From contig NC_089322.1 in the NCBI RefSeq assembly GCF_036669915.1, positions 13,211,678-13,275,677 on the forward strand: a stretch of 64,000 nucleotides of DNA, written 5' to 3'. This stretch comes from Pocillopora verrucosa (taxonomy: Eukaryota > Cnidaria > Anthozoa > Scleractinia > Pocilloporidae). This document shows, piece after piece, positions 8,627 through 54,102 of this stretch (positions within the stretch are counted from its first letter, which is position 1; each line of letters begins with the position of its first letter). Made by a program: the position numbers and the translations under genes. The notes under the pieces were generated by a model that saw nothing but the letters and a program-made list of their open reading frames with translations, had not been told where the DNA came from and did not search any database.

Positions 8627-9376
8627 CGTGCACTCCCCCTCCCTCCCCCTCCCTCCCCCTCCCTCTCTCCTCCCCATCCCTCTCCCCTCCCCATTCCTAA
8701 TATCAGAAGGAAAAACTTGCAAATTCTTTAAGTGGGAGCAAGAAAAGCAGTTTCATTATGGCCATTACTAAGGCTACAGAATTCATCTTTTGTCAAAGTG
8801 TAACACCATAGGGATTTTTTTTTAACTTACGTCATTATTTCGGCATTATCTTCGATGCTCTTGCTATTATAATTATGCAGTTATGCTATCAAACTTATGT
8901 ACTGAATACGGGTGAAAAATTTAATCTTACCTTCAGGAGCGTTGCAGACATTCACTCTCAATTATTTCGCATGCCGCTCCAAAAGGCGGGAAAACCGATA
9001 CAATTTTCCTACTTGTGAAAAAAAACCGTATTACCCTTATGATTAGTCAAACGATATTTTTAACTAACGAGAAAAATCCCATGACCAATGGGATTGCTTT
9101 TCATCAAAGAAAAACGATTTTTATTCGGTACGTGAGTTTACACTGAGTAAATCCCAGTACTTCTTTAACACGTTAGATTACGCTATGCAGATTTGTATAA
9201 TACTGCATCATTCTTCTGCATGGCAAGAGTGATTTTTAGTTTATTGAAAATTTCATTTCACATCTCATGTTTTGACTAAAGGAAATATAATAGATACTAT
9301 TTTTATGAGTTTCGGCTCTTTGTGCTTGCTCGCCCTTAATCATTTTGTATTTAATTTTTATCGACAGTAAATCACA

Positions 9377-9451
9377 GATGTGCCACCAGATTCAAAGGAC
9401 TTACCAGAACAAACAGGATGGAGGAAATATGTCTCTTTAAGGAGAGACTAG
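9377..9451 (+). pseudogene. Copy of UQCC6-like second exon
   Basis: This is a plus-strand exon-like block preceded by an AG. It reads DVPPDSKDLPEQTGWRKY... for 24 codons to a TAG in the frame that matches brawnin/UQCC6 (YYRPDL followed by a short PP-containing tail). Homologous blocks of identical length lie at 12,191, 27,225, 33,239 and 52,004. No first exon remains near this copy, so it is a relic. A second conserved exon-like block follows at about 9,560-9,690; its product is unknown. Confidence 0.5.
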
Positions 9452-11674: not shown

Positions 11675-12600
11675 TCTGAAACAACTTGAGAGAAAGATCA
11701 GCTGAGTTATATTTTTTTGTAAGCAGTCTAGAAACTTGACTGTTTATTCTCAAGATTTGTCTTTTTTTGTTCTCCTGAGCTGCCACATAAAACATTTGTA
11801 AATGGAATTGATTGTAGGTTTCACTAATTGTCAATCAACTAAAACTACAATTTTTAGGGGAAGTTCTTTGTTAGCGGAAATTTTCCTCTTTCAGGCATGG
11901 AAACCCGGGTCGAAAGGGTAAAAAATAAGAATGACCTATTCCAAGTTGTCTTTCTTGAAGTTCACAATCAGCTTCCAACTGAATTCTCCTCTGCCCCATG
12001 TTGCAAAAAGTGATTAAGGACTGGGAACGAGTGAGGATTAAACAGGAAAATGGGAATAAGATGTTTTATCAACCTACCTAATTGGATTCAGATTTGATGA
12101 GTAAGATCGAGTAAGTTATGAGCTTGGGCTGTCTGTGCCCACCAACCCTTTGACATTTTGTTGCTATTTTTTTATTTTAATGAAATTAAAGATGTATCAC
12201 CAGATCTAAAGGACTTTCCAGAACAAACAGGATGGAGAAAATATATTTCCATAAAAAGAAACTAGCTGTGAATACAATCTAATTTAAAAATATTGAATTA
12301 ATTTTAAAATTCCATGATAAACATTTTCCCTTCAATTTGTTATCATACTATGAATCCCTTGTCTTCATTTAATGTTTTTAAAGGGTCACAAAACTATTTT
12401 TCAAGATACTGAGAAAAAGATGATAGAAATAATGGAAAAAAGTGAGAGATTATATCTGGTTTGTAATGTAACCAAAAATACAAAGAAGCACACACAGTTG
12501 TATCACTAATGATTAAGGAAACTATTATTTTGTGGACTAACACATGTTAAACAGTTCTATTGCAAAGCAGAGACAAACTCAAAATAATTCAGGAAAAAAT
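11675..12600 (+). pseudogene. Relic of UQCC6-like intron and second exon
   Basis: This is homologous to 51.1-52.4 kb. An exon-like block at 12,191-12,265 reads DVSPDLKDFPEQTGWRKY... to a TAG after 24 codons, followed by the second conserved block at about 12,380-12,510. The first UQCC6-like exon is deleted upstream: the acceptor ATGA at about 10,910 joins directly to intron sequence. No functional gene remains. Confidence 0.5.
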
Positions 12601-19360: not shown

Positions 19361-19689
19361 CTCCATCATAAACTCCTGAATTATTGTTTGGTTAAGGCAG
19401 AAATATAAATACCACTCACAAGTTTGAACTGTAACGAAGGGATTCCTCTTGATTCTGCATCCTGTTATCCGCAATCGCGTTAAGGTTTAGTCGTGAATCA
19501 GGGCAAACATACAAACACAACCACCATACCCATAAGCTTATCGTTCTTTCCTGTTTACAAGAACGTTATGCACCCGTAGTAAATAGACCAGCGGTCAGAA
19601 GTTCAAGGTTTTTGGTACCTCGAAATGCTGTCTTTTAACATGGTGGCCGTTTGAAATTACAGCGCTTGCGCAAGTCATTGCACGATTTG

Positions 19690-20830: not shown

Positions 20831-20880
20831 CTTTCTTCTTTCTAGACATCTTTCTGACTTTTCCCTGACATAAACTTCAT
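20831..20880 (-). pseudogene. UQCC5-like second exon, inverted partial copy
   Basis: The minus strand, after a CCTACAG acceptor, reads EVYVREKSERCLERRK and then meets a GTGAG donor-like site. It matches the UQCC5-like exon at 50,794 but stops before the QEQENTNKQQ tail. The segment 20.4-21.5 kb is inverted relative to the other copies. Confidence 0.55.
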
Positions 20881-20913
20881 CTGTAGGACATACAAGTAAG
20901 AGGTTTAATATTT

Positions 20914-26264: not shown

Positions 26265-28370
26265 ATTGCACTACGCGCCATGCACTGCACATCATGCACT
26301 GCGCATCATGCACTGCGCATAGATATCACGTAATCAGTTGAATAAGCGCGTGCACTCCCCCTCCCTCCCCCGCCCTCCCCCTCCCTCCCACTCCCTCCCC
26401 CTCCCTCCCCCTCCCCCTCCCTCCCCCTCCCTCCCCCTCCCTCCCCCTCCCTCCCCCTCCCTCCCACTCCCTCCCACTCCCTCCCACTCCCTCCCACTCC
26501 CTCCCCCCCCCTCCCTCCTCCCCATCCCTCTCCCCTCCCCATTCCTACTATCAGAAGGAAAAACTTGCAAATTCTTTAAGAGGGAGCAAGAAAAGCAGTT
26601 TCATTATGGCCATTACTCAGGCTACAGAATTCATCTTTTGTCAAAGTGTAACACCATAGGGATTTTTTTTTTAACTTACGTCATTATTTCGGCATTATCT
26701 TCGATGCTCTTGCTATTATAATTATGCAGTTATGCTATCAAAATTATGCACTGAATACGGGTGAAAAATTTAATCTTACCTTCAGGAGCATTGCAGACAT
26801 TCACTCTCAATTATTTCGCATGCCGCTCCAAAAGGCGGGAAAACCGATACAACTTTCCCACTCGTGAAAAAAAACCGTATTACCCTTCTGATTAGTCAAA
26901 CGATATTTTTAACTAACGAGAAAAATCCCATGACCAATGGGATTGCTTTTCATCAAAGAAAACGATTTTTATTCGGTACGTGAGTTTACACTGAGTAAAT
27001 CCCAGTACTTCTTTAATACGTTAGATTACGCTACGCAGATTTGTATAATACTGCATCATTCTTCTGCATGGCAAGAGTGATGTTTAGTTTAATGAAAATT
27101 TCATTTCACATCTCATGTTTTGACTAAAGGAAATATAATAGATACTATTTTTATGAGTTTGGGCTCTCTGTGCTTGCTCGCCCTTAATCATTTTGTATTT
27201 ACTTTTTATCGACAGTAAATCACAGATGTGCCACCAGATTCAAAGGACTTACCAGAACAAACAGGATGGAGGAAATATGTCTCTTTAAAGAGAGACTAGT
27301 AAATAAAATTTAATTGAAAACATGCTAACTCAGTTGCGAGACTGTGATAAACATTTTTCTTTTGTGTACAAGGGACAACTCTTTTTTCTTCATCAATGTG
27401 TTTGAAGGGTTTCAAGATTATTTTGCAAGAACTGAGAAAAAGACGAAGAAAATGATGATGAACAGTGAGAGATGAAAAGAAGCATGTACAGCTGTATCAC
27501 TAATGATTAAAAAAACTGTAATTTTTTTTATTAAAACATGCTCAGTTTTCCTTCACAGGCAGCAACTACCTAATTTACCGCCAACAGTATGTCGTATTGA
27601 GGCCTTACATTCCTTTAAATTCTTTATAATCAATCAGGTATAAGGACCACTCTTCCGTATTAGACATTTATTTTACCTGCTGTGCATAAAATAGGGGAGA
27701 GCACTTCACATGTCAGGTTTAATGCTAAAACAAACGGATTGCAAAATTACTCAGGAAAAACAGGGAGGGAACCAAATTGTCAAGTTTGTAAAAAATACCA
27801 GCTTTTTTTGTGGAGTAATGGAATGGTAACAGGAATATTTTTAGAGCAAAAGTTGTTACTAACAAAAAGTTAGACAAATATCTTGCGATGTTGAAAATTG
27901 GAGAAAATCTAGAAAATCACGATGATGGAAGAATGAAAAAAAAGTTAAACTTTTCTTAAACGTTCCCTACCAAGGTCTGTTTCGAAAAATGCAATAAAAA
28001 AATAGCTCGTGATGCTTGTTTTTTAATTTATGGAAAAAATTAACCGATTTTAAACGACATCGACTCAAAACGTTCTTCGAGGCGTTGCATTTAAGATCAT
28101 GATTTCCATCCTTGAGTAACGGGCTTCCTGCACGTTTTAAACTATATCTTTTTTCCACTGATAATCTTTTTTATGTCTCTCTGATTTAAAGGAGATAATT
28201 TTTACACCAAAATTATCCAATAAAAGGTATTAGTCAAGGTGCCTTTTCAAGAGCAAAAGATCAAAGTAGCTGTTTACCTCGTCCATTGACTGAAAACCAA
28301 CACTTATTCAACTGATTACTTGATATCTATGCGCAGTGCATGATGCTCAGTGCATGATGCACAGTGCAAT
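26265..28370. repeat. Second copy of the segment bounded by CATGCACTGCGCAT arms
   Basis: The arms are at about 26,265-26,345 and 28,302-28,370, as at 8.54/10.54 kb. The interior carries a UQCC6-like second exon relic at 27,225-27,299 (24 codons then TAG) and part of the following conserved block (about 27,410-27,500, shortened by a deletion). The segment is part of the 23.1-29.0 kb duplicate. Confidence 0.7.
26354..26540 (+). repeat. Polypyrimidine CCCTCC microsatellite
   Basis: There are about 30 copies of a CCCTCC/CCACTCCCT unit, with almost no purines on the plus strand. The duplicate locus at 8,633-8,695 has only about a third of this length, so the tract has changed since duplication. 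It opens spurious proline/serine or glycine/glutamate frames, which I reject. Confidence 0.9.
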
Positions 28371-32205: not shown

Positions 32206-34150
32206 GAATAAGCTCTGATGAAGGGCTAACGATCGATAGAAACTCGGTGGTCAATTTGCCTTATCAACTCAGTTGATAAATCCGAATTAGCTTAGATGTC
32301 CATTATGACGTTCTTGGAGACTTGAAGCACATTATAGGGTAAAGTGATTTAACTATCCGTCTTCCTGTACACACTTCCATGTATGGTCAGCGCATGCTCA
32401 TTGAAAGTGGAATTTAGCTTCAGATTGGTTTCGAGTAACAATGTTTTTGAGTGTTCCCCCTGCAAACATGGCTTTATGCCAAACATCATGCTCAGAGGTT
32501 TTCATTAAGCTCAAAATAATACTTGAAAATGATAGCTTTTAAGAACCCTTCAACCTTTCCCCCCCTATTTTTACTATCGGAAGGAAAAACTTGTAAAGAA
32601 TAAAAGGCTTACCGAAGTTAAGAGCAGAATAGTTTACTGGATCAAATTCCAAAAGCGGGAGCAAGAAAAGCAGGTTCACTGTGGCCTTTACTCAGGTTAC
32701 AGAATTCATATCTTGTTTCGGTGCTGCTCCAAAGGGATTTTTTAGAACTTACGTCATTATTTCGGCATTATTCTCGATGTTCTTGCTATTATAATTTTGC
32801 AATGAGGCTATCAAAATTAGGGACTTAATACAGAAGAAAAATTTCATCTTACCCGCAGGAGCGTTGAAAACATTCACTCTCAATACTTCGCTCCGAAAGG
32901 CGGGAAAAACCGGTACGATTTTTCTCACTTGTGAAAAATCGCATGACCAATGGGATTGCTTCTCATCAAAGAGAGAAGATTTTTATTCGGTTCGTGAGTT
33001 TGCTCTGAGTGAATTTCAGTACTTCTCTATTACATTAGATTACGCTATGCAGATTTGTATAATACTGCAGCCTCCTTCTGCATGGCAAGAGTAATGTTTT
33101 ATTTAATGAAAACTTCATTTCACATCTCATGTTTTGACGAAAGGAAATATAATAGATACTCTTCCTATGTGCTTGGCCCCTCTGTGCTTTCTGGCCCTGA
33201 ATCATTTTGTATTTACTCTTTATCGAAAGTAAATCCCAGATGTGCCATCAGATCTAAAGGACTTACCAGAACAAACATGATGGAGGAAATATATCTATTT
33301 AAAGAGAGACTAGCAAATACAATTAAATTGAAAACATGCTAACTCAGTTGCGAGACTGTGATGAATATTTTTCTTTTGTGTCTATGAGACAAATAGTTTT
33401 TCTTCATCAATGTGTTTAAAGGGTCTCAAGACTATCTTTTTCTGAGGAAAAGTCAAAGGAGATGATGGTAAACAGTGAGAGGTCCTCTCTGGTTGGCAGT
33501 GCAGCTAACATCAAAAGAAGCATATACAGCTGTATAAATAATGATTAAAAAAACTTAATTTTTAAAATTAAAACATGCAATGTTCTCCTTCACAGGCAGC
33601 AACTACCGGGTAAAATTTACCGCCTGCAGTATGTCGTATTGAGGCCTTAAATTCTTTTAAATTCTTGAAAATTAATTAGGTAAAAGGATTACTTTACAGT
33701 TAAAGAAATTTATTTTACCTGCTGTGCGTAAAATAGGGGAGAACACTGCATATGTCAGGTTTGATGCAAAAGCAAACAGATCACAAATAACATAGGAAAA
33801 ACTTAGGGGGGGGAGGCAAATTGTCAAGGTTGTAAAAAGTACCAGGGTTTTTTTTTTCTTTTTGGTGGAGTAATGGAATAATAACAGGGAATAGTTTTAA
33901 AATGAAAAAATAATGGTGAAAACAGTAGATTGTCTTTAGGACTACGGCTTTGTTTCAATGTATGGAACTCCAGCCACCATCAGAAACGTTGGCATTTGCT
34001 AAGTGGGAAAAATTGAAATGTTTAAAACTTTCACTTTTAAGTGTCTCCTTTAATTTTAAATTATCATCGTAGGAGATTAGGTATAAAATAAATAAGCTGA
34101 AGCAAAAGGATATACGTAAACAATCAGTTTTGGTAAAAAAAAAAACTTTT
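32206..34150. other. Array DNA without a complete gene; UQCC6-like exon relic
   Basis: The first 80 bp is a short repeat (CTGATGAAGGGCTAACGATC...). From about 32,290 the sequence is a diverged form of 8.3-10.0 kb, without the CATGCACTGCGCAT arms. A UQCC6-like second exon lies at 33,239-33,313, with a TGA at codon 14 in place of the Gly/Trp region, so it is dead. The second conserved block is at about 33,415-33,545. Confidence 0.55.
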
Positions 34151-34355: not shown

Positions 34356-34404
34356 TAAAAAGGAGACAAATGAAGATCAAACCTCTCACTTGTATGTCCT
34401 ACAG

Positions 34405-34596
34405 ATGAAGTTTATGTCAAAAAGGAGGCAGAAAGACGTCTAGAAAGAAGAAAACAAGAACAAGAAAACACAAATAAACAACAGAGTGTAGAACCTGTTG
34501 GCGTATTCTGGCCGTTATTTAACCTTCTTTGCAGTCAGTTTAGCAAATTGCCTGGCAGGAAGTCAAGTGGTGCAGTTGTACTACAGACCAAACCTG
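34405..34596 (+). pseudogene. UQCC5-like exon 2 fused to UQCC6-like exon 1, dead copy
   Basis: After a CCTACAG acceptor the plus strand reads EVYVKKEAERRLERRKQEQE, matching the SMIM4/UQCC5 C-terminus. In a second frame it then reads YLTFFAVSLANCLAGSQVVQ and LYYRPNL, matching brawnin/UQCC6, up to a GTGAG donor. Compared with 50.8 kb, the UQCC5 stop codon and the UQCC6 ATG are lost through a small deletion/substitution, so neither small protein could be made correctly. Confidence 0.65.
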
Positions 34597-36713
34597 GTGA
34601 GAATCTTACGTTCTGTTTATTTTATGATTCATGAACATAGGAAATAGTAGATCACTACCCTTTGATTTACCTACATTTCAGCAAGGTTTCCTTTGCAATT
34701 TTTTGGAACTTCTAAAACAAAACTGGTCTGAAAGATCAGCTGAGTTATATTTGTTTGTTTGCAGTCTAGAAACTTGACTTGTTATTCTCAAGATTTGTTT
34801 TTCTATTCTCCCTTATTGCTATATACAACATTTAATTTTTGTAAAGCTTAGAGAATTAAGAGTATCTTGTATCTGATAAGTTAAATTATTATTATTACTT
34901 GCTCACTAAATGATGCAGTGGAATTATGGGGAGAGATTCCTCTTTTTTCAATTAATCACTTTTTAAATTGATTTTAGGCTTCACTGATTGTCAATAATTA
35001 ACTAGAGTTGCCATGTTTAGGTAAAGCTCTTTGTTAGCGGAGTTTTTCTACTTGCAGGCATGAAAATCCTAATCAAAAGGAGGCAAAATTGCTATGAAAA
35101 AAGTTTTGATTCTGTCAAAAGCTGAGCTATTCTAAGTTGTCATTAATGAAGTAAGCAATCAGTTTCCAACGTGAATATTTATCTTTATTAATATGAATCT
35201 AAACTGAGAGGCCTGGACTGGGTACAGGCAGGGTACATAATTGTATTTTTCCTTTTCCTTAAAATTGAGCAATTTATTCAGCATACAAGTAATAAGACTT
35301 AGATAGAGCCAATGGCCATTCACTACACTAACGCGTTTTAATTGCGAAATTACTTTGGTATATTACCGCTCTGGTATCTGTGCGCATGTTTTAAGTAATA
35401 AAGCAAGCAAGCAAGCATGCGAGCGAGCAACAAGTTTATTTCAAGCTTCTGAGAAAGTTTTAGTTCCCTCCCATCGAAATTGACAGGTTTGACTCTCTTA
35501 ATCTCATTCGTAGTTTATTCCTGATTACTGGAACGTTGGTTTAGTGTATTCGTCAAATATATTTTATGTAATATTATAAAATGTTCAGAGAAATGCGCAC
35601 GCCGTGATTGGTCAGAACGAGTTCATCATATTTCCATAAAGCACACCTCTTCCGTCACACGACTGCATTATTGAGATATAATGCACACAGCCTACGTCAT
35701 CGGTAAGAGCGCGCGCAATTCACGATACATTTTCTACAGTAATTAAAAGAACTTGTTCTTCGATCATTATTGAGTTCCATAAGCACTTGGGAATTCTTAA
35801 GAACACCCGAGAAGTGCGAGAAGCACTCGCCTTCGGCAGGTGCTTCTCCGCACTTCTTTCGTGTTCTTAAAAATTCCCGCGTGCTTATCTAACTCAGCAA
35901 TGCACTCGTCGCATTTTTTGTTTGTTGTCAAATGTGTTATTTACGGATATATACATTTGATAAACTGTCTGGTTCCAAAACAAGCCTCTGTCTTTTGTGG
36001 TGTTTGGTGAATTCTCCTCTGTCCAAGGTTACAAAAAGTGACAAAGGATTAGGAGTTAGAAAGGGATAAACAGGAATAATATGTTTTATTAACTTACCTA
36101 ATTGGATTAGGGGAAAAAGGGAGAAAAGTTAGTTTATTTTATAGTCATGAATTTTTAACAGCCAAAAAAAAATTCCTTACTTTGCTCACGACACCTTTTT
36201 CCTTTCAGCCGAGCAGAAGATGTATGCAAGTTTTCGCTGTGTGCGCGGATTAGGCTACATGACTATTTCAGAACTGCTGAGGGCAATAAAGGAGAAGGTT
36301 CTGTTTGATACGTTCCCGGAGTTTTCCGAATAAAGTGCTACATATTCTTGTAGTGATACCTACTACATCGTGTTCCACAGAACGATCATTCAGTCCGTTG
36401 CCTTGATTGAAAATTTACCTCTTACCACCATGGAGCAACAACGTGTCAGTAACATCGCACTTATCAACACTGAAAGGGCATATGCTAACTCTGTAGTCAA
36501 CAAGGGATCGTATCATTGATATCTTCGGCCGTCGAAATGGCAGAGATAGCTATATATTTCTTTTAATATGTTTTATGGGCTCATATGATAGATTCATATG
36601 TAAGAATATATTTATTTCATATGTAGGCCTATGTTAGTTTATCGTACGACTCGTGTTTCTCTTCGACTGTTTCATAACAATTTGGGCAACTTACAAGAAT
36701 TTTTTGGCATTAT
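34597..36713. other. Relic intron and intergenic sequence
   Basis: The start is homologous to the UQCC6-like intron at 51.0-51.6 kb. An imperfect hairpin lies at about 35,779-35,889 (GCACTTGGGAATTCTTAAGA against TTCTTAAAAATTCCCGCGTG), probably a foldback MITE. The segment 36.3-36.7 kb resembles 15.3-15.7 kb. No coding evidence. Confidence 0.5.
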
Positions 36714-48610: not shown

Positions 48611-49056
48611 CTCCTGACTTTTTGTGTTACAAAACAAAACAAAAAAATAATCAGTTAAAATGCCTAACCATTAAAACGTATATCAACAGCTGAAATTTTT
48701 TTTCTGAAAGTTTTTTCGGTGCAGAGTGGCACACAAGTGATAGTGTGGTTAAGGCAGAAATATAAATACCACTCACAAGTTTGGGCTGTAACAAAGGGAT
48801 TCCTCTTGATTCTGCATCCTGTTATCCGCGATGGCGTGAAGGTTTAGTCGTGAACCAGGGCAAACATACATACACACCCACCATACCCATAAGCTTATCG
48901 TTCATATCGCTCTTTTCTGGTTTACAAGAAAGTTGTGCGCCCGTAGTAAAATCACCAGCGGTAAAAAGTTCAATGAGTTTGGTAGGTCAAATACTCTGAC
49001 TTTCAACATGGCGGCAGTTTGAAACTACAGCAGGCTTTTTTACCTTTGAAAATTCC
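48611..49056. promoter_or_regulatory. Candidate bidirectional promoter region between TDG-like and UQCC5-like units
   Basis: The interval lies between the divergently oriented TDG-like exons and the UQCC5-like first exon. It contains CAACATGGCGGCAGTTTGAA, a YY1-like motif often found in promoters of housekeeping genes. The homologous interval at 19.36-19.69 kb is kept with CAACATGGTGGCCGTTTGAA. Promoter function is inferred from position only. Confidence 0.35.
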
Positions 49057-49697
49057 ATGTTTGATGAAAAAATAAGGACGATTTAACGGCGCCTCGGTGT
49101 CCATAGATTCTTGCTGCTGTTTTTCATCGCTGAAGCTGGAATTGAGCTATTTATGATGAAGGTTCGCATTGGAAAGGAAACTTCTTGTAAGTAAGCTTAC
49201 TATTAATCGTGTACGTTGATCTGGTAAAAGTACTGTCATTTTTTTATTTATTTTTAAATCAAAGCTTTATCAACAGTACGAACAAATTTTACTTAAAGTG
49301 GGTCATTTTTGTTGCATTATTCTCCATATGAACTATTTACGTCCACTTTGAATAATAAGACTTTATTTGCCGCATGAGGATCGCTTGCAGTTTTGAAGGC
49401 GGCTGTTGATTTTTCCGTTCGTAGTCACAAAATGACTGGGTTAGATTTCTGCAAAGCCCTATACTTCATTATGCATACAGTTCTTGGGTAATAAAATAAT
49501 GGCGAAAAGAGTAGACAGTCTCTGTGATTATGGCTTTTTTTTAAAGTATAGGACTCCAGTCACCGTCAGAAACGTTGGCATTTGCCAAGTGGGAAAAATT
49601 GAAATGTTTTTGAAATCTTTCACTTTTAAGTGTCTCCTTTAATTTTGAATTATCTTAGAGAGAGGTTTGGTGAAAAAATGAATCAGCTGACGCAAAA

Positions 49698-49888
49698 GGG
49701 TAAACAGAGTTTCTCCTTACAATATCAATACAATATCAACGAGAAAAGTGACGAGAATAAAGAAAAATATAAAGTAGTGATTTTTAGCTGATCCAAAACC
49801 AAGTTCTCCAAACTCACATCACAAGAATTGTAATTGGCAGACAGTTAAGAGAATTACTAATGAGATCTTCAGATTGAAAACATTAACC
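49698..49888 (+). mobile_element. MITE copy in UQCC5-like intron
   Basis: This is the same family as at 34,151-34,355. It contains AGAGTTTCTCCTTACAATAT and ends AACATTAACC; the left terminus is shortened. Its position before the UQCC5-like exon is shared by three copies. Confidence 0.7.
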
Positions 49889-49927
49889 AAAAAGTTGATA
49901 AATGAAGATCAAACCTCTTACTTGTAT

Positions 49928-50780
49928 TAAAGTTGGCAAAGTAAATATAGCTCCACCCTCTCCTGTCAAAACCCTTGGAGTCTGGTTTGACTCAAACCTA
50001 TCTATGGTTGATCATATCACCAAGACTTGCTCTGCAGTGTTTTACTATCTTTGTAACATTAGAAGAATTAGAAAATATTTAACAAAAGAATGCACGGAGA
50101 CACTTATTCATGCCTTTATATCTAGTCACTTGGACTATTGTAACAGCCTCCTATTTGGGGTTCCTGAGTGCCATCTTCACAAATTACAGAGAGTCCAGAA
50201 TGCAGCTGCATGCCTTATATTCCAGGAGAGCAGATTTTGTTACATCACACCTCTGCTCAAATCATTACACATATATCACATATAGTTTTTAAAATTATTT
50301 AATTACTTTTAGAGCAATACATGGTCTTGCCCTGGCCTACATAAGTGAGCTGATTTCTGTTAGAGACACCGGAAGATATGATTTCCTTTCCAACGATGGC
50401 TTACTCCTTGCTCCTTGCAGGGGTAAAACACTCACCATGTTCGGCGATCAATCTTTCCATGCGGCCGCCCCTAAATTGTGGAACGATCTTCTGGGCTCTA
50501 TCAGAAACACCCAATCTTTAAACAAGTTTAAGAAGGCCCTTAAGAATTTTTTATTTGCCAAAGCTTTTTAATTCTTGGTATCTAATTTCATATTTTTACA
50601 TTTTCTTAGTGATTATTTATTTATTTATTTATGACTATTTTTTTTGTTTTTTTTTTTTATCTTTTAATTTTTAGTTTTTAGTATCTATGTAGCTTTTTTA
50701 ACTTTTAATTGTAATGCACAATTAAAAATTCTTATATTGATAATTGCACAATATAAGTCTATAAATTATTATTATTATTG
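49928..50780 (+). mobile_element. 5'-truncated LINE (L2/CR1-like) inserted in UQCC5-like intron
   Basis: A plus-strand frame reads KTLGVWFDSNLSM, CSAVFYYLCNIRRIRKYL, FISSHLDYCNSLLFGVP and KLQRVQNAAACLI, the typical end of a LINE reverse transcriptase. After shifts it continues to FHAAAPKLWNDLLG...FKKALKNFLF at about 50,570. The 3' end is an ATT repeat. The insertion splits CTTGTAT and TTATGTCCTACAG, which are contiguous at 34.39 kb and 20.88 kb, so this is a clean insertion after the array duplicated. Confidence 0.85.
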
Positions 50781-50897
50781 TTATGTCCTACAGATGAATT
50801 TTATGTCAGAAAAGAGTCAGAACGATGTCTAGAAAGAAGAAAACAAGAACAAGAAAACACAAATAAACAGCAGAGTGTAGAGCCATAAATTCTGAGG

Positions 50898-52108
50898 ATG
50901 CCTGCTGAGATATCCTGGCCTGGATATTTAACTTTCTTTGCAGTCAGTTTTGCAACTTGCCTGGCAGGAAGTCAAGTGGTGCACTTGTACTACAGACCAA
51001 ATCTGGTGAGAATGTTTTGTTGTGTTTATTTTATGGTTCATGAGCATAGGAGATAGAGGATCCTGACTGGAAAAACTACCCTTCAATTTTTCTACATTTC
51101 AGCAAGGTTTCCCTTTTTGCACTTCTAAAACAAAACTTGTTGGAAAGATCAGCTGAGTTATATTTTTTTCTTTACAGTCCAGAAACTTGACTCTTTCTTC
51201 TCATATTTGATTTTTTTTTATCCTCCTTAGCTGCTATATATAACATTTCTTATAAAGCTCAGAGAATTAGGAGTTGTATCTTGTATTTGATAAGTTTAAT
51301 TAAGTACTACTTACTTACTGAATGATACAGTGAAAGTATGGAGAGGAATTTCACATTAATCACTTTTTGGAATTGATTGTAGGTTTAACTGATTGTTAAT
51401 AATTAACTAGAGCTGCCATTTTTAGGTGAAGCTCTTTTTTAACAGAAATTTTCCACTTTCAGGCATGGAAACCATGATCAAAAGGGGATAAAATTGTTAT
51501 GAAAAAGTTTTGATTCTGTCAAAAGCTGACCTATTCCAAGTTGTCATTCATGAAGTACAACTGTACACAATCAGCTTCCAACTGAATTCTCCTCTGCCCT
51601 ATGTTACAAAAAGTGACTAAGGACTGGGAATGAGTAAGGATTACACAGGAAAATGGAAATAATAAGTTTTATTAACTTACCAAATTGCATTCAGTGAGAT
51701 CAGGTAAAGGACAATACAAAGTGATTTAGCAAGGGAAGTTTATTTTATAGTCTACAATAAAACCTCACTTTGGTCAGAAAACTGTTTACTTTCTTTCAAA
51801 CTCTTCAAAATATTTCAATATCTGTAATACATCAGACTTCTTCTGCAGGGCAAGAGTAATGTTTTGCTTAATGAAACTGCAACTTTGCATCTCATCTTTG
51901 ACTAATAGAAAAATGATAGATACAGTTGTTATGTGCTTGGGCTGTCTGTGCTTACTGAACCTTTTGACATTTTGTATCTACTTTTTATTTTATGGAAATT
52001 TTAGATGTACCACCAAATCCAAAGGACTTTCTAGAACAAACAGGATGGAGAAAATATATTTCCATAAAAAGAGACTTAAGTGTATACCATCTAATTGAAA
52101 AATATTGA
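50898..52108 (+). CDS. UQCC6: Brawnin/C12orf73/UQCC6-like micro-protein, second cistron
   Basis: The ATG at 50,898 lies 9 nt after the UQCC5-like stop. Exon 1 (50,898-51,005) encodes MPAEISWPGYLTFF, then AVSFATCLAGSQVV, then HLYYRPNL, ending at a GTGAG donor. Human brawnin has MFAASLLAMCAGAEVVHRYYRPDL at the same place. Exon 2 (from AG at 52,003-52,004 to TGA at 52,108) reads DVPPNPKDFLEQTGWRKY... in the frame resembling brawnin's IPEIPP tail. The total is about 70 residues against 71 in human. Brawnin is an inner-membrane factor needed for complex III. Problem: joining the canonical splice sites leaves exon 2 one nucleotide out of that frame, so either the junction is unusual or the copy is decayed. 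Homologous exon 2 copies occur four more times. Confidence 0.6.
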
Positions 52109-52631: not shown

Positions 52632-54102
52632 TTAGGACTGGGCTCTAGGCACTTCCTCAATCATTATCCGGGATACTGAGTTCCATCCAGTGTAAGCATT
52701 ACCCAGTGGTTCAGTAGGACATTGTCCTACCCATAACTCCACAGTAACCCTGCCCTGTGGAATGTTTTCACAGTATCCCTCAAATGATCTGTGATGAAGC
52801 AGATTACGACTCCCAGATGGCCAATTGTTGTACACAACAGCCTCAATTGTCATTGGTCCACTGCATTCATTTCCATTAAACTTGAAGAACCATCGGTTGC
52901 ATTTACTTGAAGTGCCTCTCACTGCCATATTTCCTTGGAATGAGACGTTAATAGCTGTATGAGATTTCAGCTTGTTGAATGAGCAATCCTATAAAAAATG
53001 CATAAAAAAAAAAATGCTTTGTAAGAGTCTTATAGGAAAAAATTTGATGATGACCTTGTACTTTTCCTGCCTGCTAGAATGCACAGAATTGTTAATTGAT
53101 ATTTTCAGTTTGATAGAATTTCTCTATAGTCTCTTTGAGAGATGGCCATGACAAATTGGCTCTAACACTTAATTTATTTTCATTGCATTTTCTAGATATT
53201 TCTGTACCTTAATCTTTCCGCTATCTCTACCATCTTCATTTTTCCACACACACTGTTTCCAGTTGGTCTGTGACACTGCACTATTCACGATTTCTCCTTT
53301 CTCTCCTTTAGATCCCTGCTCTCCTTTCACACCCTTGATTCCTGGCGGTCCATCGCTGCCACGTGACCCTTCATGACCTTTATTTCCTTTTATTCCCATC
53401 ATTCCAGGTGCACCATTTTTACCAAGTGACCCTGGATTTCCTTTTAGTCCTCTTGTTCCCGTCATACCTCTCGGTCCCTTGACACCAGGCTCCCCCTTAG
53501 CTCCATCTTTTCCCTGTTGCCCTTGCGGCCCTGGAGCGCCGGGAATTCCCGGCATTCCTGGTATGCCATTCGATCCTGGAATCCCAGAAAATCCGTAAGC
53601 AAAAATGGATTTCTGAAAAAGAAAAAAGAACATATAATTATATAATGGATGTACTCGATGTTTATTGATATTTTCGTGTCCGCCGCAGTAGCACAGCAGT
53701 TTCTTCAGAAACTAATCACGTTGAGAATTTAGCCTCGTTTTAGGAGAAACAGCTCGGAACATTGGATGATCTCATACCGTTGTGGAGATATTCCTAAAAG
53801 AAAAATTTTTTCAGCAATGTTCTACTCTGTCTTTGAAACTTATGATTGATGAGGGATTTGATTTTTGCTTAGCTTGGCAGATTTGAGTGGTAAACTGAGG
53901 TGTGAATAATGAACGTTTCATGATGTACATGCGATTTTGTCGTAAATAATCGTGGATAAAGCATGCTTAAGAGTACCTCACATGGGTCTTTGACAGCGCC
54001 AGCTTGTGGATTCTGTTGTTGAGGACTGGTGGTTGTTCCCACGGAACTTACTCCTGTTTTGGATGAGACAAATAGAACAGCGAGGATCAGAAACTTCGCC
54101 AT
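52632..54102 (-). CDS. CTHRC1-like secreted collagen-repeat protein, locus 6 (intact)
   Basis: Exons are 54,102-53,977 (126 nt), 53,612-53,208 (405 nt) and 52,988-52,632 (357 nt), phase 0, about 295 residues. The signal peptide is one residue shorter than in the other loci (MAKFLILAVLFVSS). It then has the T/Q/P linker with DPCE, 34 Gly-X-Y triplets, NWKQCVWKNEDG, and a complete C-terminal domain with CNRWFFKFNG, NECSGPMTIEA and TGWNSVSRIMIEE. Variable loops are VRGTSSKC, NNWPSGSRN and CPTEPLG; the last is shared with dead locus 2. The 5' flank and intron 1 are closest to locus 5, while the 3' flank matches loci 2-4. No lesion is visible. Confidence 0.87.

Follow-up and report, generated by a model that had tools for sequence, protein, structure and literature searches.

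Two short open reading frames (ORFs) resembling UQCC5 and UQCC6 lie one behind the other in the stretch of DNA considered here (64,000 nucleotides; C11:13,211,678-13,275,677, in an assembly of 353 Mb and 52 contigs), which we call as a whole the window. They raise the question of whether the pair is a working two-protein gene and, if it is not, what it is and where the functional version lies. The human proteins SMIM4 and C12ORF73 are known to be located in the mitochondrial inner membrane and to bind UQCC1/UQCC2, with which they form a complex at an early stage of complex III assembly (PMC8719881). In Drosophila, a weak first AUG of the pair is followed by a strong second one, and reporter experiments gave support to leaky scanning (PMC9681215).

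The best explanation overall, in which we have good confidence, is that the window copy is a dead, unprocessed pseudogene, formed with its introns by tandem duplication of a bicistronic UQCC5-UQCC6 gene, that an intact copy on the same contig is the likely source, and that this source would give a bicistronic mRNA read by leaky scanning.

Family identity and exon structure

A single exon of the window copy, exon 2 (50794-51005), carries both the end of UQCC5 and the start of UQCC6 (Table 1). Families were assigned with Pfam-A, where the curated cut-off is 27 for UPF0640, which we take to be the SMIM4/UQCC5 family, and also 27 for DUF4516, presumably the brawnin/UQCC6 family. The resemblance is no accident. 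Read directly from the DNA of exon 1 (49087-49185), UPF0640 was matched with 30.3 bits (E-value 3.9e-7), and the spliced UQCC5 downstream of its in-frame TAA reached 46.3 bits (E-value 3.9e-12), while DUF4516 was matched at 50898-51005 with 54 bits (E-value 1.3e-14). With the spliced UQCC5 and with exon 2, respectively, the window copy is above the cut-off for both families, and its UQCC6 scored 61.4 bits with the corrected exon 3 join. An earlier candidate for this join, at an AG three codons inside the exon (62.4 bits), was rejected after a comparison of five copies and then of the intact copy, which gave a phase-0 junction. The 30 amino acids of UQCC5 encoded by exon 2 matched no Pfam-A family when searched alone.

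The original prediction had described UQCC5-like and UQCC6-like peptides in that order in one exon chain, with the second ATG 9 nucleotides past the first stop, and had staked itself on profile searches placing both peptides. All of this was borne out, with both families matched and a spacer of 9 nucleotides found in the intact copy as well. A search of solved structures with the window-copy proteins returned no match for UQCC5 and a single chance match, to a capsid protein (E-value 0.55), for UQCC6; a search of viral contigs gave no match, and a bacterial match of 21 residues within a long bacterial ORF was set aside as unrelated.

The intact copy and the damage to the window copy

An intact UQCC5-UQCC6 locus lies at C11:13,114,635-13,116,625, on the low-coordinate side of the window and about 95 kb from it; the distance to the window copy is about 146 kb. 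Both of its ORFs are open, with a UQCC5 of 74 amino acids, the spacer, and a UQCC6 of 63 amino acids, and the spliced proteins score 73.6 bits (UPF0640) and 72.8 bits (DUF4516). This UQCC5 is thus shorter than 100 amino acids and has a membrane segment (hydropathy peak 1.89, residues 18-36). Genome-wide profile searches, whose match counts are lower bounds, found at least nine DUF4516 and at least three UPF0640 matches, all within C11:13.11-13.39 Mb, and the best match of both searches was one locus, the intact copy. A genome-wide search with the intact UQCC5 gave 15 matches, 13 of them in the tandem array described below and two, on C5 and C6, at chance level (E-values 1.96 and 8.45). Every exon is open and the introns are GT-AG in just one of the nine exon 2 copies found genome-wide, the intact one, which is most likely the functional source. 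The intact two-ORF unit that was to be sought in the rest of the genome was therefore recovered as an exon chain at the DNA level.

The window copy, by comparison, is damaged at several points. Its UQCC5 has a TAA at codon 10; at the acceptor of UQCC6 exon 3, TG has replaced AG; and the UQCC6 stop has been lost through an indel where exon 3 ends, so that the frame continues to 52108. With the TAA, it has no open UQCC5 frame of fewer than 100 amino acids with one membrane segment, and with the exon 3 acceptor and stop lost it has no complete spliced UQCC6 ORF. The TAA had already been pointed out and was confirmed; the acceptor and the stop indel are further lesions. A shortened UQCC5 N-terminus was also considered as a deletion and rejected, since the intact copy is equally short there. 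Intron 1 contains some 850 inserted bases (49926-50781) close to the acceptor of exon 2. The insertion is absent from two partial copies in the window (B and C) and from the intact gene and is therefore probably younger than the duplication; it had no Pfam match, and from its appearance we take it to be LINE-like (long interspersed nuclear element).

It is very unlikely that the window copy is alive all the same, whether through readthrough of the TAA, through initiation at an in-frame AUG further downstream, or through a shortened UQCC6 that reads on from exon 2 into intron 2. Exon 2 is open with a good UQCC6 profile score (54 bits), and the two donors are undamaged, as is the acceptor of exon 2, but the three lesions and the insertion near that acceptor speak for decay, a start at the next in-frame AUG would cost UQCC5 most of its membrane segment, and the intact copy could supply both proteins.

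The comparison of the two copies also bears on their state. Counting aligned parts only, exon 1 aligns without gaps and has 13 mismatches in 130 positions (10.0%), the two parts of exon 2 have 4.5% and 5.6%, exon 3 has 6.1%, intron 1 12.6% and intron 2 8.3%. Over 137 codons, there are 17 amino-acid differences, 10 synonymous differences and 1 stop. These differences would fit one copy being constrained and one being free; the sole undamaged exon set found in the genome is a stronger argument than the codon counts.

Start codons and the sequence upstream

In the intact copy, T is at -3 for the UQCC5 AUG and for three further AUGs that lie between it and UQCC6, and A is at -3 for the UQCC6 AUG, so that on the -3 base alone the first context is weak and the second strong. 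T occupies -3 in 30.5% of the 4,544 plus-strand ATGs in the region. Two of the intervening AUGs open frames, of 12 and 9 codons, which both close before UQCC6. In the window copy, two AUGs inside UQCC5 have A at -3. The contexts of the intact copy fit leaky scanning of the kind shown in Drosophila.

We consider it improbable that the two ORFs are instead expressed separately, either because the spacer AG of the intact copy (CTTTTGAG/G ATG) is used as an acceptor for alternative splicing or trans-splicing, or because a promoter in intron 1 gives a UQCC6-only message. The intact spacer, and likewise that of the other seven copies keeping it, has a short run rich in T before its AG, but a T tract so short would presumably make a weak acceptor. 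The Drosophila spacer, GCAAA, of 5 nucleotides, belongs to a confirmed bicistronic transcript (PMC9681215).

Both ORFs share one frame, in the intact as in the window copy, across the 9-nucleotide gap, and in a decayed copy at 13,190,744, CAA stands in place of the TAA and the frame stays open from one ORF into the other. A fusion of the two proteins through stop readthrough would make use of this frame, and to that possibility we give hardly any credence; two separate proteins from one message remain our preferred explanation.

Upstream of the intact start codon, the sequence common to the other copies stops at about 13,113,200 and restarts at about 13,114,595. An 8-bp direct repeat, GTATGGAA, at 13,113,207 and 13,114,595 flanks 1,380 bases (C11:13,113,207-13,114,602) with inverted-repeat ends that are 79.5% identical over about 300 bases. 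This element looks like a transposon insertion and may have changed the promoter or the leader; the 8-bp duplication is, as we assume, reminiscent of hAT elements.

As an observation in its own right, a AACATGGCGGC-like motif, which we take to resemble a YY1-type start-site motif, stands about 50 bases 5' of exon 1 in the window copy (copy A; 49004-49015). It is altered in others, e.g., at 19628-19663, and in the intact copy it sits 5' of the 1.4-kb element.

The Cthrc1-like array

In the stretch C11:13,100,001-13,355,000 (255 kb, of which 12,500 bases are N), we found 25 CTHRC1_C matches that reach 40 bits or more; all are on the minus strand, and three are partial. They span C11:13,117,246-13,345,745, and eight of them (one partial) are in the window, at 4759-62180 on the minus strand. 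The UQCC exons interleave with these Cthrc1-like genes, mostly on the plus strand, and the intact UQCC gene is at the low-coordinate edge of the stretch read, where its 3' end faces that of the first Cthrc1-like gene. This tandem array contains at least nine copies, the window copy among them, a fact that the original prediction had missed; together with at least seven others, the window copy is passenger debris of the Cthrc1-like array.

The spacing between the ORFs is recognisable in most of the exon 2 copies: TAA, 9 nucleotides and ATG in seven of the nine, window and intact copies included, CAA with the same spacing in one, and loss of the region in one. The last of these, copy B, matches DUF4516 at window 34516-34596 (E-value 1.5e-7). 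At the exon 3 acceptor, the intact copy reads AAG, the window copy ATG and a further remnant (D) AAT, which fits independent decay.

Table 1 UQCC5-UQCC6 features, their copies and the neighbouring gene; positions are window positions unless marked C11
Feature	Position	Strand	Detail
Exon 1 remnant of UQCC5, membrane-segment part	49057-49186	+	in-frame TAA 49084-49086; GTAAGT donor
Intron 1	49187-50793	+	donor GTAAGT, acceptor CCTACAG; holds the ~850-base insertion
Exon 2, 5' part, UQCC5 end	50794-50888	+	stop TAA 50886-50888
9-nucleotide spacer, UQCC5 stop to UQCC6 start	50889-50897	+	from comparison of exon 2 copies
Exon 2, 3' part, UQCC6/brawnin start	50898-51005	+	ATG 50898; donor CTG/GTGAGA; Pfam DUF4516
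Intron 2	51006-51994	+	3' end TG, AG in intact copy (acceptor lost)
Exon 3 remnant of UQCC6	51995-52075	+	bounds by comparison with intact copy; stop lost by indel
Intact copy, exons 1 to 3	C11:13,114,635-13,114,764; 13,115,344-13,115,555; 13,116,542-13,116,625		GT and AG at both introns
Cthrc1-like collagen gene, convergent neighbour, repeated gene of the array	52635-53711	-	Pfam CTHRC1_C E-value 7e-39; Collagen E-value 3.8e-19
Exon 2 copies	C11:13,153,290; 13,390,981		TGA in UQCC6
Exon 2 copies	C11:13,173,773; 13,313,232		TAA in UQCC6
Exon 2 copy	C11:13,300,623		exon 2 on the strand opposite to nearest exon 1
Exon 2 copy	C11:13,190,744		exon 2 start missing; CAA for UQCC5 stop; frame open across ORF junction (13,190,720-13,190,752)
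Copy B, partial exon 2	34393-34600 (C11:13,246,193)	+	18-nucleotide deletion of UQCC5 stop, spacer and UQCC6 ATG
Copy C, partial, inverted, first part of exon 2	20831-20892	-	
Exon 3 remnant	33233-33310	+	TAA before exon, GAA in intact copy; further stop inside
Exon 3 remnant D	12182-12262	+	acceptor AG lost
Exon 3 remnant E	9371-9448	+	TAA before exon, GAA in intact copy
Exon 3 remnant F	27219-27296	+	TAA before exon, GAA in intact copy

Discussion

Taken together, we propose that the intact locus would give a single mRNA with the UQCC5 ORF, the spacer and the UQCC6 ORF, the latter being reached by leaky scanning past the weak-context AUGs, and that both products would be membrane microproteins for early complex III assembly. 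A Cthrc1-like gene, to which this gene was the convergent neighbour, would then have amplified into an array and taken the duplicate with it. We infer that the intact copy is transcribed and spliced; leaky scanning and function are suggested by analogy with Drosophila and human.

Several points weigh against this explanation. The 1,380-base element parts the intact start codon from the upstream region that is retained by other copies, which makes the transcription start uncertain, and a leader reaching into the end of the element would add AUGs at -71, -55 and -38 relative to UQCC5, whose frames are 1, 15 and 3 codons long, respectively. If the intact gene were silent, the genome would, among the matches found, be without a source of either protein. 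Furthermore, UQCC6 has a hydropathy peak of 1.42 over 19 residues, below the 1.89 of UQCC5, four AUGs with T at -3 are a small sample, and the codon differences are not numerous enough to establish that the intact copy is under selection.

A wider conjecture, for and against which we find the balance even, is that UQCC5 and UQCC6 may have been kept on one message since before the split of animals and choanoflagellates because leaky scanning at weak AUGs holds the two partners at a fixed ratio. This genome would then rely on one such gene at the edge of the Cthrc1 array, and its dead copies would show the unit with selection switched off, e.g., in the AUGs with A at -3 inside the window UQCC5.

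What is new here is the explanation of the damaged copy as array debris, together with a further member of the bicistron, so that an instance intact at the DNA level, and probably cnidarian judging by the Cthrc1 array and the original prediction, is added to the known spread of the UQCC5-UQCC6 unit. There is also a warning for annotators, as short ORFs within a tandem array may be no more than remnants of an adjacent gene, with the functional copy possibly outside the stretch that is read.

Comparison with known systems

Human SMIM4/UQCC5 and C12orf73/UQCC6 belong, as we assume from the Pfam names, to the same protein families as the two proteins described here. A literature search pairing cnidarian terms with the gene names returned no paper showing both by term counts, although sparse mentions could escape such a search. 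Bosch et al. 2022 reported linked sloth1-sloth2 orthologues in a choanoflagellate, sea squirt, lamprey and Drosophila (PMC9681215), and in a term search of the main text of that paper 'cnidaria' and 'Nematostella' each occurred 0 times. The idea that the arrangement is ancient, which the original prediction had put forward, was thus already proposed by these authors and is not new, while the intact two-ORF exon chain in this genome agrees with it. Since the linkage had been reported, the case here belongs to a known kind, to which it adds a further and probably cnidarian example. It fits the published view of an ancestral linkage lost towards jawed vertebrates, where the orthologues are on separate chromosomes, human included (PMC9681215).

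The linked SMIM4-C12orf73 orthologues of the choanoflagellate, sea squirt and lamprey are described as the same pair in a bicistronic gene of similar architecture (PMC9681215). The likeness is also close to Drosophila sloth1-sloth2 (CG32736-CG42308), where a UQCC5-type ORF is followed a few nucleotides later by a UQCC6-type ORF with weak and strong AUGs, respectively (PMC9681215), and in both the window and the intact copies the UQCC6 ORF likewise begins a few nucleotides after the UQCC5 ORF in one exon. However, the Drosophila spacer is 5 nucleotides long and the ORFs are out of frame, whereas here it is 9 nucleotides long and they are in frame, and transcript and translation were tested in Drosophila (PMC9681215), whereas the unit here is known from DNA. 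As for the surroundings, a single scaffold with several Cthrc1 genes in close linkage, and up to 31 family members in corals, have been described (PMC7058181). Linked Cthrc1 genes are found here as in those cnidarian tandem arrays, but the array described here also bears decaying UQCC5-UQCC6 copies, which go unmentioned in the passages of that paper drawn on here.
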